A stretch of 64,000 nt of DNA from contig JAEUTO010000003.1 in NCBI GenBank assembly GCA_016787785.1, positions 124,001 to 188,000 on the forward strand. Reading direction: 5' to 3'. The notes below the pieces were generated by a model. The model made no database searches. It was not told the origin of the DNA and was given only the letters and a program-made list of their open reading frames with translations. This DNA comes from Bacteroidia bacterium (GTDB lineage Bacteria > Bacteroidota > Bacteroidia > B-17B0 > Aurantibacillaceae). Every line of letters begins with the position of its first letter. The stretch's first letter is position 1. Below are positions 18,098 through 21,681 of the stretch, one piece after another. Both the position numbers and the translations under genes were made by a program.

Positions 18098-18394
18098 ATG
18101 AGGCCAAAGGCATTTACACAGCAGGAAATTGATGCTGAATTTTTAAATTTAAAAGATTGGACGCTTAACGGCAAAAGTCTTTCTAAAGAAATTGCTTTCA
18201 AAAATTTTGTGCAGGCTTTTGGTTTTATGACACAGGTTGCTTTAGAAGCCGAAAAATTAGACCATCATCCTGATTGGAAAAATGGATACAACAAAGTTTC
18301 TATAACATTAAGCACACATGATGCCGGTGGCTTAACTGAACTGGATTTTAAACTGGCAAAAAAAATAGATAAAATTTTAGCGAATGGATTTTGA
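18098..18394 (+). CDS. Pterin-4a-carbinolamine dehydratase
   Basis: The protein has 98 residues. It dehydrates 4a-hydroxytetrahydropterin and belongs to the PCD/DCoH family. The active-site motif is complete: [27 protein letters not shown], with H56, H57, D59 and H74. Upstream TATCTTTA (18086-18093) is one base off the -7 consensus, just before the ATG. The 3' end overlaps thiL by 11 bases. Its position next to folB suggests pterin recycling; no aromatic hydroxylase is seen in the window. Confidence 0.92.
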
Positions 18395-19430
18395 CAACAC
18401 AGGAGATACCGAACTTTCTGAATTAGGAGAATTTGGTTTAATTAAACATTTAACACAACACATCGAACTATATCACGACTCCACCATTAAAGGAGTTGGC
18501 GATGATGCCGCTGTAATTGACAACGGCAAAATGGAAACCGTTATCTCTACCGACATGCTCGTAGAAGGCGTGCATTTTGATCTTACCTATGTGCCTTTAA
18601 AACATTTGGGCTACAAAAGTGTGGTGGTTAATTTAAGCGATATTTACGCCATGAACGCGGAACCGCGTCAGATCGTGGTGTCCATTGCTATCTCTAACCG
18701 TTTTAAATTAGCTGCTTTAGAAGAGTTATATGCCGGTATGTTACTGGCCTGCAAAAAATACAATGTTGATTTGGTTGGTGGCGATACAACCTCCAGCTTA
18801 ACAGGATTAGTAATAAGTATTACTGCTATTGGCGCTGCAAAAAAAGAAGACATTGTTTACCGCAGCGGTGCTAAAGAAAGTAATTTGTTATGCGTTACCG
18901 GTGACCTTGGTGGCGCCTACATGGGACTACAAATTTTAGAAAGAGAAAAAGCTGTTTATGTTGAAAATCCAAAATTACAACCAGACCTTGAAGGCAAAGA
19001 TTATATTTTAGAGCGCCAGTTAAAACCCGAAGCACGAAAAGATATTTTTGAATTATTTAAAAAATTAAAATTAAAGCCCACCTCTATGATAGATGTGAGC
19101 GATGGTTTGTCTTCTGAGATCTTACATCTTTGTACGCAATCTAACGTGGGGGTTGAATTATACGAAGAAAAAATTCCGATCGATCCGTTAACAAATGATA
19201 CCGCTATGGAATTTAATCTTGACCCTACCCTTTGTGTTTTAAGTGGGGGCGAAGATTACGAATTATTGTTTACCATAGATATTGGCGATTACGATAAAGT
19301 AAAAAATTTACCTGACTTTACCATTATTGGCCACATTACCAACGAAGCAAAAGGCCGTTTAATGGTTGCCAGGGCAGGCTCTGTGCACGACCTGAAAGCA
19401 CAGGGCTGGAATGCTTTGTTGAAAAAATAG
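18384..19430 (+). CDS. thiL: Thiamine-monophosphate kinase
   Basis: The protein has 348 residues. It phosphorylates thiamine phosphate to thiamine diphosphate using ATP. Family signatures: [10 protein letters not shown] (38-46), [47 protein letters not shown] and [10 protein letters not shown]. The start overlaps the dehydratase stop by 11 bases (translational coupling likely). It is the last gene of ordinary composition before the cassette-like island. Confidence 0.95.
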
Positions 19431-19442
19431 TTATATTTATTG

Positions 19443-19528
19443 AACCGAATAGGATGAAAAAATCACCCCAAGCCGACCAAAATGTGCAGACTGGGGTGAT
19501 AAAATCACGCCTATAAGGTAGTTATAGC
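19443..19528 (+). other. attC-like recombination site 0 (imperfect long hairpin ending in GTTATAGC)
   Basis: ATCACCCCA (19462-19470) pairs perfectly with TGGGGTGAT (19492-19500). Outside it ATAGG (19449-19453) pairs with CCTAT (19510-19514), leaving unpaired bases between the two helices. The structure ends with GTTATAGC (19521-19528), which resembles an integron R' core (GTTRRRY). That octamer is the exact complement of GCTATAAC at 20133-20140, as expected for the two ends of one gene cassette. It could also act as the thiL terminator, although it lacks a T-tract. Confidence 0.5.
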
Positions 19529-19572
19529 GCATTGCCGCGGACAGACATTCCGTTTAAAAAAAGACTTCGGAC

Positions 19573-20103
19573 ATGAAAAAGGAGAATATTAATAAGGACA
19601 TCGCCGACGCCGTCAAAAGTCTTTTGAAAATGGCTCGTGACTCTTCTTTCAATCACATTTCGGACAATTGCTCTTATATCATTTCAGAAATTAAACACAG
19701 CGACAAAAACTTCTTTGAGCAAACTAAAATTCGCAAGGCAGACAACGACAAAAAGACACCAAAGTCATTCGCGGACATCATTGCAGACCTAGAAAAATTA
19801 TATCCGGACCTTTATGACGTCAATTTGTATGTTTACAAAGCCGACAAAGACTCTACAATAGTTGAAATACAATATTTTCCTCGTTCATCTCACGACACTG
19901 AATATCAAAAAATATCTGCGGGACAGGAGACAATGCTTCATTGCAAAGTAGCTCTTCCATCATACGCTAGTGAAACAAAAGAGAAATTTGACATCAACTG
20001 GGAACATGGGACATTAAATCATAAGTGGAAAATGTTTTGGTGGCGACGAAAAACAAAAAAATATCTTCAAAGTAAAGGCATTAAAATACAGGCGGACACG
20101 TAA
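19573..20103 (+). CDS. Hypothetical protein, cassette ORF 1
   Basis: The protein has 176 residues, soluble, without signal peptide or recognised motif. Its N-terminal half is helical and charged (KDIADAVKSLLKMARDSS); a beta-rich middle (NLYVYKADKDSTIVEIQYFP) and a Trp/basic tail (WKMFWWRRKTKKYL) follow. Asp is encoded almost only by GAC, unlike the neighbouring thiL and receptor genes, where GAT dominates. The ORF sits between two attC-like hairpins with its start about 50 bases after the GTTATAGC core, a normal gene-cassette arrangement. I do not recognise a family. Confidence 0.75.
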   Translation: MKKENINKDIADAVKSLLKMARDSSFNHISDNCSYIISEIKHSDKNFFEQTKIRKADNDKKTPKSFADIIADLEKLYPDLYDVNLYVYKADKDSTIVEIQYFPRSSHDTEYQKISAGQETMLHCKVALPSYASETKEKFDINWEHGTLNHKWKMFWWRRKTKKYLQSKGIKIQADT

Positions 20104-20132
20104 GCGTGTCGCACCTGTGTGGCGGCAACGAC

Positions 20133-20228
20133 GCTATAACAGCACCTACTTGCAATTTTTTGCGGGTTAACGCTCAAATATGTAACTTGACCAGCAAAAA
20201 ACTGCAAGTAGCTGCCAAACGTTAGCCC
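20133..20228 (+). other. attC-like recombination site 1
   Basis: The 96-bp element begins with GCTATAAC (20133-20140) and ends with GTTAGCCC (20221-20228). Inside, CTACTTGCAATTTTTTGC (20146-20163) pairs with its complement at 20194-20211 with one mismatch in 18, around a 30-base loop that contains GTTAAC. Outer AGCA/TGCC bases add partial pairing. Size, imperfect stem, large loop and the AAC ... GTT ends fit an integron attC site. A covariance search was not possible, so this remains a pattern-based call. Confidence 0.6.
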
Positions 20229-20262
20229 CAATGTTGCGGACAGACTGACAATCACAGAAAAA

Positions 20263-20754
20263 ATGAAAGACATTTACTTAACGACAACTCTTAAGGACAA
20301 ATACATGAAGGACTTTACTGAAAATGTTTTGCACGGACAGTTTTGGCCTTTAGACGAAGGGCTTCCTGAAATTCTCACAGACATCAATAAAAATCCAAAG
20401 GTTCAGACACTTTACTCCAAAAAATGTCAATGTGTTAACTGGGGCGACGAAGACAGTTACTTTGAATTTTGTTATTCTCAAGATCTTGAATTAAATATAT
20501 TTCAATCAATTATTCCAAATTTAATTTACGAGTTCAATGCAGACACAAAATCAAGACTTGGTTACTTGTTTCAACACCCAAAACTAAATCCTAACTTTCA
20601 TGCAGACAAACCAAAAAAAGGCATTGGCTGTATTGACGATGTCAATTATTTTAATGTGAATAATATAAAAATTATATTGCACTCGACAGACAAACAAACA
20701 CATGACGACTTTTGGACCAAAATACAAAAGACATTCGGACAATTGGGTTTATAA
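20263..20754 (+). CDS. Hypothetical protein, cassette ORF 2
   Basis: The protein has 163 residues, without signal peptide or membrane helix and with no recognised family. It has an aromatic, acidic middle (CVNWGDEDSYFEFCYSQDLEL) and a C-terminal part (IKIILHSTDKQTHDDFWTKIQKTFGQLGL). The codon bias towards GAC is the same as in cassette ORF 1. It lies between attC-like sites 1 and 2, and its leader shares the decamer GCGGACAGAC at almost the same distance from the core as in cassette 1. Confidence 0.75.
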   Translation: MKDIYLTTTLKDKYMKDFTENVLHGQFWPLDEGLPEILTDINKNPKVQTLYSKKCQCVNWGDEDSYFEFCYSQDLELNIFQSIIPNLIYEFNADTKSRLGYLFQHPKLNPNFHADKPKKGIGCIDDVNYFNVNNIKIILHSTDKQTHDDFWTKIQKTFGQLGL

Positions 20755-20773
20755 AGCTGCGTGCGCAACACTA

Positions 20774-20809
20774 GGACTAACAGCAAGCCATGGCGCAAAA
20801 CGTTATGAT
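20774..20809 (+). other. Short attC-like site 2
   Basis: GGACTAAC (20774-20781) is the complement of the cassette-2 start GTTAGCCC with one mismatch. A small hairpin on GCCATGGC follows, and then GTTATGAT (20802-20809) after AAAAC. At 36 bp it is shorter than most attC sites, so it may be truncated. Support rests mainly on the end complementarity and position between two short ORFs. Confidence 0.35.
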
Positions 20810-20824
20810 CGACGGTGACAAAAA

Positions 20825-21172
20825 ATGACTCATAAACAAAAACTCATACTCTTTTTAATTTTTTGTGACCCCGGTGTAAGGGACATCTATAGACTTATTA
20901 AATTCTTTGACCGAGCAGACCATGTAAACTTTCCATCAAACATGACGGCTAATTTAAAATTTTTGCTTGACGATAACTTAATACAAGTTGCTAAGTGGTT
21001 CGACAACAAAATGGAACCCTTTGAGTATTCAATAACAGAAAAGGGTAAAGCCTATCTTGACGAAAATTTTAATGACGAAGAAATTATAGCTTATATAAAA
21101 GGGATGATTGAGCCGGGTATTTTATTAGAAGTGACTCAAGCTTACATCGACAAAAAAAATAAAAACCAATGA
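20825..21172 (+). CDS. Small winged-helix-like protein, cassette ORF 3
   Basis: The protein has 115 residues. The segment FLLDDNLIQVAKWFDNKMEPFEYSITEKGKAYLDENF looks like the recognition helix and wing of a PadR/MarR-type winged helix; the N-terminal helix is hydrophobic (LILFLIFCDPGVRDIYRL). This assignment is tentative. Its last four bases overlap the start of the GNAT gene (ATGA), so the two are translationally coupled. It is preceded by attC-like site 2, but no matching attC (expected ATCATAAC) was found downstream, so the cassette seems to have lost its 3' end. Confidence 0.65.
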   Translation: MTHKQKLILFLIFCDPGVRDIYRLIKFFDRADHVNFPSNMTANLKFLLDDNLIQVAKWFDNKMEPFEYSITEKGKAYLDENFNDEEIIAYIKGMIEPGILLEVTQAYIDKKNKNQ

Positions 21173-21681
21173 TCTTACGAAAAGCAACTTTTTTAGAATT
21201 ACCTATTATCTGGCAGATCTTACAACAAGCTATTGAACAGAGAAGACAAGATGGAAGTACGCAATGGCAAAATGGTTATCCAAATGAACAAAGCATTCAT
21301 GATGATATAACCAAAGGTTACGGTTATGTACTTGTTGATAACGAAGAGATAGTGGCTTACGCTGCAATTATTTTTGATATTGAACCTGCCTATACCGATA
21401 TTATAGGAAAATGGCTAAGCGCCGGTGATTATGTTGTGGTGCATCGTGTAGCAACAGCCAACGCCGTTAAAGGCAAAGGTGTGGCCACCTATCTCTTTAA
21501 ACAAATAGAAGAATTAAGTATTGAGAAAAAAGTGTACAGCATTAAGGTAGACACTAACTTTGATAACATTCCCATGCTAAAAATTGTAGACCGGTTGGGC
21601 TATACTTATTGTGGTGAAGTGTTCTTTAATGGTTCGCCCCGACGAGCCTATGAAAAAGTATTGCAAAAGCCCCATCACTAA
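21169..21681 (+). CDS. GNAT-family N-acetyltransferase
   Basis: The protein has 170 residues. The acetyl-CoA binding signature is visible in VVVHRVATANAVKGKGVATYLFKQIEE (motif A, Q/RxxGxG/A variant), followed by VYSIKVDTNFDNIPMLKIVDRLGYTYCGEVFF (motif B). The acceptor substrate is unknown. Codon use resembles the chromosomal background rather than the cassette ORFs. ATGA overlap with ORF 3 suggests co-expression, perhaps created by the island's insertion. Confidence 0.88.
   Translation: MILRKATFLELPIIWQILQQAIEQRRQDGSTQWQNGYPNEQSIHDDITKGYGYVLVDNEEIVAYAAIIFDIEPAYTDIIGKWLSAGDYVVVHRVATANAVKGKGVATYLFKQIEELSIEKKVYSIKVDTNFDNIPMLKIVDRLGYTYCGEVFFNGSPRRAYEKVLQKPHH

Follow-up and report, generated by a model that had tools for sequence, protein, structure and literature searches.

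A cassette array without integrase in a Bacteroidota chromosome, probably the remnant of an integron of the IntX type

The DNA analyzed here, a window of 64,000 nucleotides from the genome of a Bacteroidia bacterium, carries what is very probably the remnant of an integron (we put the probability of this reading at about 0.88). An attI, two recognisable gene cassettes and a truncated third are present, the integrase is missing, and intact relatives of the element appear to use a tyrosine recombinase that we call IntX. A first-pass annotation had taken the locus for an integrase-less cluster of attC sites, and we likewise find that this Bacteroidota chromosome contains an array of integron-type cassettes with no integrase. 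However, we read it not as a bare attC cluster but as an integron that lacks its integrase, because the array opens with a recognisable attI behind thiL, a site that had been overlooked.

The layout of the locus is given in Table 1. Integron DNA starts directly after the thiL stop codon, at the point where the closest relative (genome G005), which is 92% identical up to the end of thiL, diverges; homology to G005 returns at about 21160. In G005 the flanks are approximately 90% identical to those of the window, with 1.8 kb of unrelated DNA separating thiL from the GNAT gene; our search for a clean empty site found none. In genome G012 (contig C22, 5961-8032), a gene related to this flanking GNAT gene lies 1.5 kb behind an attC. 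No integrase is visible anywhere in the 64-kb window, in agreement with the first reading, and no IntX remnant was found at the locus itself. An Rfam search of the window gave no match.

Table 1. The cassette array and its chromosomal flanks, in positions of the window.
Feature	Position	Strand	Remarks
thiL-like gene (AIR synthase family; Pfam AIRS)	18384..19430	+	chromosomal left flank
promoter-like box TATATTTA	19432..19439	+	Bacteroidota -7 type TAnnTTTG, 1 mismatch
attI	19454..19526	+	imperfect inverted repeat, end CCTATAAGGTAG^TTA
gene cassette 1	19521..20220	+	start GTTATAGCG-CA-TTGCCGC pairs with end GCGGCAACGACGCTATAAC
cassette ORF1, 176 aa, without known family	19573..20103	+	
attC 1	20133..20229	+	R'' 20133-20140, L'' from 20142, L' to 20215, 5-nt spacer after L', R' from 20221
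gene cassette 2	20221..20801	+	start GTTAGCCCCAATGTTGCG pairs with end CGCAACACTAGGACTAAC, 3 mismatches
cassette ORF2, 163 aa, without known family	20263..20754	+	
collapsed attC 2	20774..20810	+	R'' GGACTAAC, short GCAAGCCATGGCGC, AAAAC, R' GTTATGATC
truncated cassette 3	20802..21160	+	no closing attC ahead of resumed chromosome
cassette ORF3, 115 aa	20825..21172	+	weak winged-helix match (HTH_34 E 0.0022, below cut-off)
GNAT acetyltransferase gene	21169..21681	+	chromosomal right flank; 93% orthologue in G005

The three orphan ORFs between these flanking genes all lie on the plus strand, as originally described, and none of them has a family in Pfam or NCBIfam (for ORF3, an assignment from two weak PADLOC matches was not trusted). 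Among the 86 other genomes of the family, ORF2 has no relative and ORF3 has one very weak match. ORF1, for which no match was found among plasmids, has a sole clear relative in the same genomes, a pseudogene that lies behind an attC in a member of another genus (G077). The array is therefore unlike a block of fixed syntenic genes, an arrangement that the earlier annotation had named as an argument against cassettes, since the ORFs are nearly absent from the family and the corresponding interval of G005 is unrelated. Moreover, DNA homology between cassette 1 and the G077 cassette starts exactly at 19521, where G077 has an attC and not an attI. Two genera carry this cassette at different sites, which suggests that cassettes move as units with their ends at G^TT.

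The most telling feature of the locus is the match between the two ends of each cassette. The first-pass annotation had pointed out that the octamer GTTATAGC (19521-19528) is the reverse complement of GCTATAAC (20133-20140), and both sequences and coordinates are correct. This match extends to the first nine bases of cassette 1 (from 19521, GTTATAGCG), which are the exact reverse complement of the end CGCTATAAC (20140), and pairing resumes as TTGCCGC past an internal loop of 2 and 3 bases. Likewise, the single difference reported between the start of cassette 2 (GTTAGCCC, 20221) and its end (GGACTAAC, 20774-20781) holds, with pairing that extends through A(A/G)TGTTGCG. The two hairpins said to separate the ORFs fared less evenly. 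The first (20133-20229) is genuine, with 29-nt arms that are 86% complementary, but the second (20774-20810) is merely a collapsed remnant from which the middle of the hairpin is gone; contig C5 of the same genome holds a longer attC with the start CACCTAAC and a CAAGCCATGG arm. For cassette 3, an end of the form GATCATAAC was not found in the sequence before the chromosome resumes.

Searches for attC employed a rule of the form TAAC-1 nt-arm ... arm-5 nt-GTTA, which demands TAAC and GTTA, so that other cores are missed and the invariance of those four bases is partly built in. A looser hairpin scan was dropped, as it gave far too many matches in AT-rich DNA. Over the whole 64-kb window the rule finds one match per strand and shuffled sequences give 1.5. 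Because this is shuffle level, our claim for the window rests on the match of cassette ends together with the evidence from relatives, and not on the hairpin alone.

The attI of the window, which starts within approximately 25 bases of the thiL stop codon, was recovered by a profile made from 54 attI of relatives with the window attI left out (32.4 bits; E 8.5e-8 in 1.94 Mb, E-values of models built in this analysis being rough). Its nearest copy, in G023, reads AATCACCCCAACCCTACCAAAATGCGCAGACAGGAGTGAT...CTATAAGGTAGTTAGTGG where the window has AATCACCCCAAGCCGACCAAAATGTGCAGACTGGGGTGAT...CTATAAGGTAGTTATAGC, and crossover in the window site would fall between G19521 and T19522. In most IntX loci a promoter, TATATTTG or similar, lies 10-25 nt past the IntX stop codon, and the box at 19432..19439 probably occupies the position that the cassette promoter has in these integrons. 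Separately, a leader, GCGGACAGAC, is common to many cassettes approximately 15-20 bases past the crossover and ahead of the start codon, as at ~19536-19545 and ~20236-20245 of the window and at cassette starts in contigs C5 and C6 of the source genome.

How the locus came to be without a recombinase allows two answers. The simplest reading is that IntX was lost from it. Alternatively, the cassettes could have been inserted by IntX acting in trans at a bare attI-like site, in which case the locus would never have had the gene; the end of thiL lies only a few bases ahead of the promoter and attI, no trace of IntX is left there, and a second attI without IntX is known at contig C10. We nevertheless hold this to be rather unlikely, as a 73-nt attI with a promoter-like box at the usual distance exceeds the needs of a stray crossover site. 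At C10 (~820,700-821,340, minus strand; L022) this second attI likewise has no integrase; behind it come a cassette whose ends match and an attC, making it another integrase-free integron in the source genome.

Contig C6 of the same genome encodes a tyrosine recombinase of 374 amino acids, IntX, followed by an attI, a cassette that starts with GTTAGGGGTA and an attC whose R'' is TACCCCTAAC, with the contig end about 1 kb further. Contig C5 opens inside an array with the same kind of end matches, and we would guess that C6 runs on into C5. The recombinase on C6 is probably the cognate integrase of the window array. An attC covariance model scores attC 1 at 94 bits (E 3.5e-23, with the window copy among its 14 training sequences) and gives 13 matches in the source genome, on searches of which our genome-wide statements rest. 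The suggestion that the same hairpins and an IntI gene might be found elsewhere in the genome was thus borne out for the hairpins, in 13 places if that of the window is counted, but not for the integrase: no IntI over the cut-off of TIGR02249 was found in the source genome, where IntX is the best partial match. One subclass of attC, 98 nt long, has a loop (TTTTTTGC..GTTAACGCTCAAATRTGTAACTTG..GCAAAAAA) far more conserved than its stem, with copies at 20155-20205 of the window and on contigs C4, C5, C13, C2 and C10 of the source genome (G000).

The arrangement seen on C6 recurs across Bacteroidota, where IntX orthologues are followed by promoter, attI and cassette arrays on one strand. IntX-like genes (E <= 1e-70) are present in 56 of the 87 family genomes, and also in Flavobacterium limicola, F. 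palustre, F. cheongpyeongense, Algoriphagus, Kaistella and Galbibacter, on Chryseobacterium plasmids and in many MAGs. Within 32 family loci (265 kb of DNA behind IntX or its more distant relatives), the attC rule finds 67 sites on the cassette strand versus 2 on the opposite strand and 3 in shuffled sequence. For 80 loci from named genomes, the DNA behind IntX (289 kb) holds 53 sites on the cassette strand versus 2 on the other, and the DNA upstream of IntX (658 kb) holds only 8, divided 6 and 2 by strand. Genomes with IntX have a median of 4 attC versus 1 in those without (p 3e-4). Some family genomes have attC but no full IntX, which fits loss of the gene or fragmented assemblies, yet weakens the correlation between attC and IntX. 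The longest view of an array is offered by G060, with 14 attC in series behind IntX, and the complete genome G003 has two IntX, each with attI and cassettes behind it. Most genomes in the comparison are drafts or MAGs, and in most drafts the contig ends soon after IntX, as is expected because of repeats, leaving many arrays unreadable to their end.

Departures from this layout, and more distant versions of it, were also noted. In some loci of G052, G005 and others (L058, L059, L076), a short gene lies directly behind IntX at the usual position of promoter and attI; by eye it resembles an ORF6N-domain protein. IntX-like recombinases of greater divergence are present in Spirochaetota, Nitrospirota and Fusibacter (L186, L187, L188, L198, L199), with attC-like sites behind the gene in L187 and L198.

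The relation between cassette ends found in the window is general among these arrays. The starting and ending 9-mers are reverse complementary (at least 8 of 9 positions) in 61 of 72 cassettes that start at an attC, compared to a mean of 6.3 and a maximum of 13 when ends are swapped between cassettes, and the same match is found for 28 of 33 first cassettes behind attI (swapped ends: mean 2.8, maximum 8). Positions 10-11 of the cassette mismatch, and positions 12-14, often with positions beyond, are paired again. At position 11, an A in the start faces a G in the reverse-complemented end in 66 of 89 cases, which corresponds to a G.T wobble on the bottom strand; overall, mismatches in this sense number 132, versus 35 in the opposite sense. 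Folding of the circular form gives greater stability to the bottom strand in 89 of 89 cases; for attC 1, whose bottom strand the first-pass annotation had recommended folding, the energies in this form are -47.5 kcal/mol for the bottom and -38.7 kcal/mol for the top. Judged from sequence, the pairing of ends, the wobble and the folding bias are what recombination through a folded bottom strand would demand of a cassette, here achieved with a distinctive geometry.

Intact relatives of the window element carry on one strand the IntX gene (~350-380 aa), a TAnnTTTG promoter just behind it, attI, and from one to many cassettes that each end in an attC. We propose that an excised cassette is a circle whose bottom strand would fold into a long hairpin, comprising L arms, a 4-nt bulge and a 9-bp R box, and continuing through a 2-nt loop with a G.T wobble into an outer stem of several base pairs. 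IntX would then cut between G and TTA and join the cassette to a double-stranded attI. Both catalysis by IntX and its use of single-stranded DNA are suggested by the sequences, and the N-terminal domain of the protein may take part in recognising the hairpin.

IntX is not an IntI. Its catalytic residues (R231, K259, H321, R324, H347 and Y356) are invariant in 18 orthologues, and it lacks the IntI-specific additional domain near patch III, an extra domain that has been described as the mark separating IntI from other integrases (PMC9024848). Residues 183-239 of IntI4 (2A3V) face merely 15 residues of IntX, whereas XerA aligns throughout, and 31 + 10 residues of IntI1, the one protein that a search for further IntI references returned, are absent from all aligned IntX. 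A classification of tyrosine recombinases has noted incomplete conservation of the IntI insertion within its integron-like subgroup, although the insertion is essential for function (PMC8138268). IntX scores 202.6 bits with the IntI model TIGR02249, short of the cut-off of 265, and 216 bits with the XerA model NF040815, for which the cut-off is 220. In a phylogenetic tree with long outgroup branches, the IntI clade (100/100) and the IntX clade (100/99) are separate, and the best structural match to the whole IntX model is IntI4.

Approximately 60 residues form an N-terminal domain ahead of the catalytic core, with the order strand-strand-helix-strand-strand-helix. There is a weak resemblance to HARP in Pfam (matches in 3 of 37 members, the best at E 0.0043), in a sequence search of PDB (E 0.28) and in the best Foldseek match (probability 0.47), and we offer a HARP domain of the SMARCAL1 type as a lead. 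If this assignment is right, then a module for the recognition of branched DNA would replace the IntI domain.

These properties bear on the possibility that the array is a classical integron, built by an ordinary IntI that was lost or acted in trans, with IntX only a passenger. Complementarity of R'' and R', the layout of the array and bottom-strand folding are all classical, and true IntI is present in other classes of the phylum (in a 396-genome sample of the whole phylum, 105 genomes are over the cut-off). However, of the 107 genomes in the phylum that gave an IntI match just one shares the class of the window, the source genome has no IntI over the cut-off, and at the attI of arrays in dozens of genomes it is IntX that is found. 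The attC sites also form imperfect hairpins with L''/L' arms inside R''/R', as in classical attC, but the classical R' core GTTRRRY occurs in 7 of 65 only (R'' RYYYAAC in 9 of 67), the L arms are offset by a constant 4 bases (registers 1 and 5, 2 and 6, and so on), which stands out versus other registers, and the outer stem is extended. We consider a classical origin improbable.

Still harder to sustain is the idea that the genes are Xer/pdif-like modules, carried between double-stranded XerC/XerD sites with no folding of single strands. The core of IntX is closest to XerA and XerD, and pdif modules are known on plasmids that also carry tet(X) (PMC7530245). Yet a pdif site measures 28 bp, made up of two arms of 11 bp plus a 6-bp spacer (PMC7530245), whereas the sites described here are hairpins of 57-235 nt and the two ends of a cassette covary, and a double-stranded site would leave the uniform bottom-strand bias unexplained. 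Finally, although the hairpin loop recurs in conserved form at several genomic positions and the simple rule alone performs at chance level over the window, chance or another family of hairpins (terminators, MITE-like repeats) beside short orphan genes is negligible as an explanation, because such elements would not give complementarity between start and end of the same gene with a new sequence each time, because strand and position are tied to IntX, and because the excess of sites behind the recombinase in relatives excludes chance.

The reach of the IntX-type system may extend to resistance genes, as it appears from sequence to have carried tet(X) as a cassette. In the unit ISCR2-xerD-tet(X3)-res, the 'xerD' gene (TnpF) ahead of tet(X3) has a product with 51.5% identity to the IntX of G000 over residues 138-374 and 76% to a relative in Arundinibacter, and by this comparison it belongs, in truncated form, to the IntX relatives. 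Behind it, a TATATTTG promoter and an attI-like repeat that does not reach the attI profile precede the tet(X3) cassette, which begins at the crossover base with GTTATGTGC-CA-TTTTTG. Both tet(X2), on the Myroides plasmid p63039, and tet(X5), in Acinetobacter, have the same start base as tet(X3) with different hairpins ahead. In tet(X2) the end AAAACGGCACATAAC is the exact 9-base complement of the start and an attC follows. A perfect 3' end for tet(X3) was considered and rejected, as its R'' is altered and the perfect pair belongs to the tet(X2) cassette.

Other resistance genes occupy similar positions. The E. coli plasmid pYSP8-1 has an attI (25.3 bits, E 1.4e-5 with our profile) ahead of its estT-tet(X4) pair, and estT there begins with GTTAGCGGG-CA-TTGT, a match to ACAACGACCCGCTAAC at the end of estT in the tet(X5) plasmid. 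Plasmid p63039 has attC also between a GNAT gene, blaOXA, blaMYO-1 and aadS. On clinical or farm plasmids, tet(X2), tet(X3), tet(X5), estT, blaOXA, blaMYO-1, aadS and a GNAT gene are all found between IntX-type crossover sites (L206, 4052-6180; L224, 2785-4330; L226, 2690-3010; L207, 1960-2060; L227). Judged by sequence, these tet(X) and estT cassettes have exact boundaries. In the published descriptions of ISCR2-xerD-tet(X3)-res that we consulted we found no mention of attC, the unit being treated there as part of the ISCR2 element. If our interpretation is true, it would supply a concrete route by which tet(X), a determinant of last-resort tigecycline resistance, and estT became mobile before their capture by ISCR2.

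Taken further, these findings incline us somewhat toward a second class of integron, in which hairpin cassettes are recombined by a recombinase that never had, or has lost, the IntI domain and recognises the folded strand through a HARP-like N terminus. Such a class would be widespread in Bacteroidota and would be the source platform of tet(X), estT and several beta-lactamase and aminoglycoside genes on plasmids of other bacteria. The protein family as such is not unknown, because NCBI automatic names of some IntX-type proteins contain 'integron integrase', and no description of IntX arrays was found in the mainly open-access journal literature that we searched. A 2022 survey with IntegronFinder named one complete integron in Bacteroidetes, that of Salinibacter ruber (PMC9024848); the existence of a second class would explain why Bacteroidota seemed nearly free of integrons. 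If many arrays are served by a recombinase that lacks the IntI domain, comparison would also make it possible to test what the recombination of folded single strands requires.

Among the known systems that come near, classical integrons that use IntI (class 1, the Vibrio superintegrons) share with the IntX system an integrase gene, an attI, a promoter and cassette arrays in one direction, as well as attC hairpins with R'' and R' complementary within the same circle, better folding of the bottom strand and crossover at G^TT. They differ in that IntX has no IntI-specific domain and has another domain at its N terminus, in that IntX-type attC have a GTTA core without GTTRRRY, a one-sided bulge of 4 nt and a 9-bp R box with 2-nt loop and outer stem, and in that attI lies behind the 3' end of the integrase gene, such that integrase and cassettes run in the same direction. 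CALIN (clusters of attC lacking an integron integrase, defined by at least two attC within 4 kb under the IntegronFinder model) likewise consist of a cassette cluster away from an integrase. The window has one intact and one collapsed attC, both of the IntX type, and it retains an attI. XerA, XerC and XerD share the catalytic core, which in IntX is closest to XerA in sequence, but IntX carries an additional domain at its N terminus and goes together with attI and arrays of hairpins, and its sites are not dif-like as those of pdif modules are. The ISCR2-xerD-tet(X3)-res unit, in turn, resembles the IntX system in having a truncated relative of IntX and, behind it, a tet(X3) cassette whose start is the crossover base.
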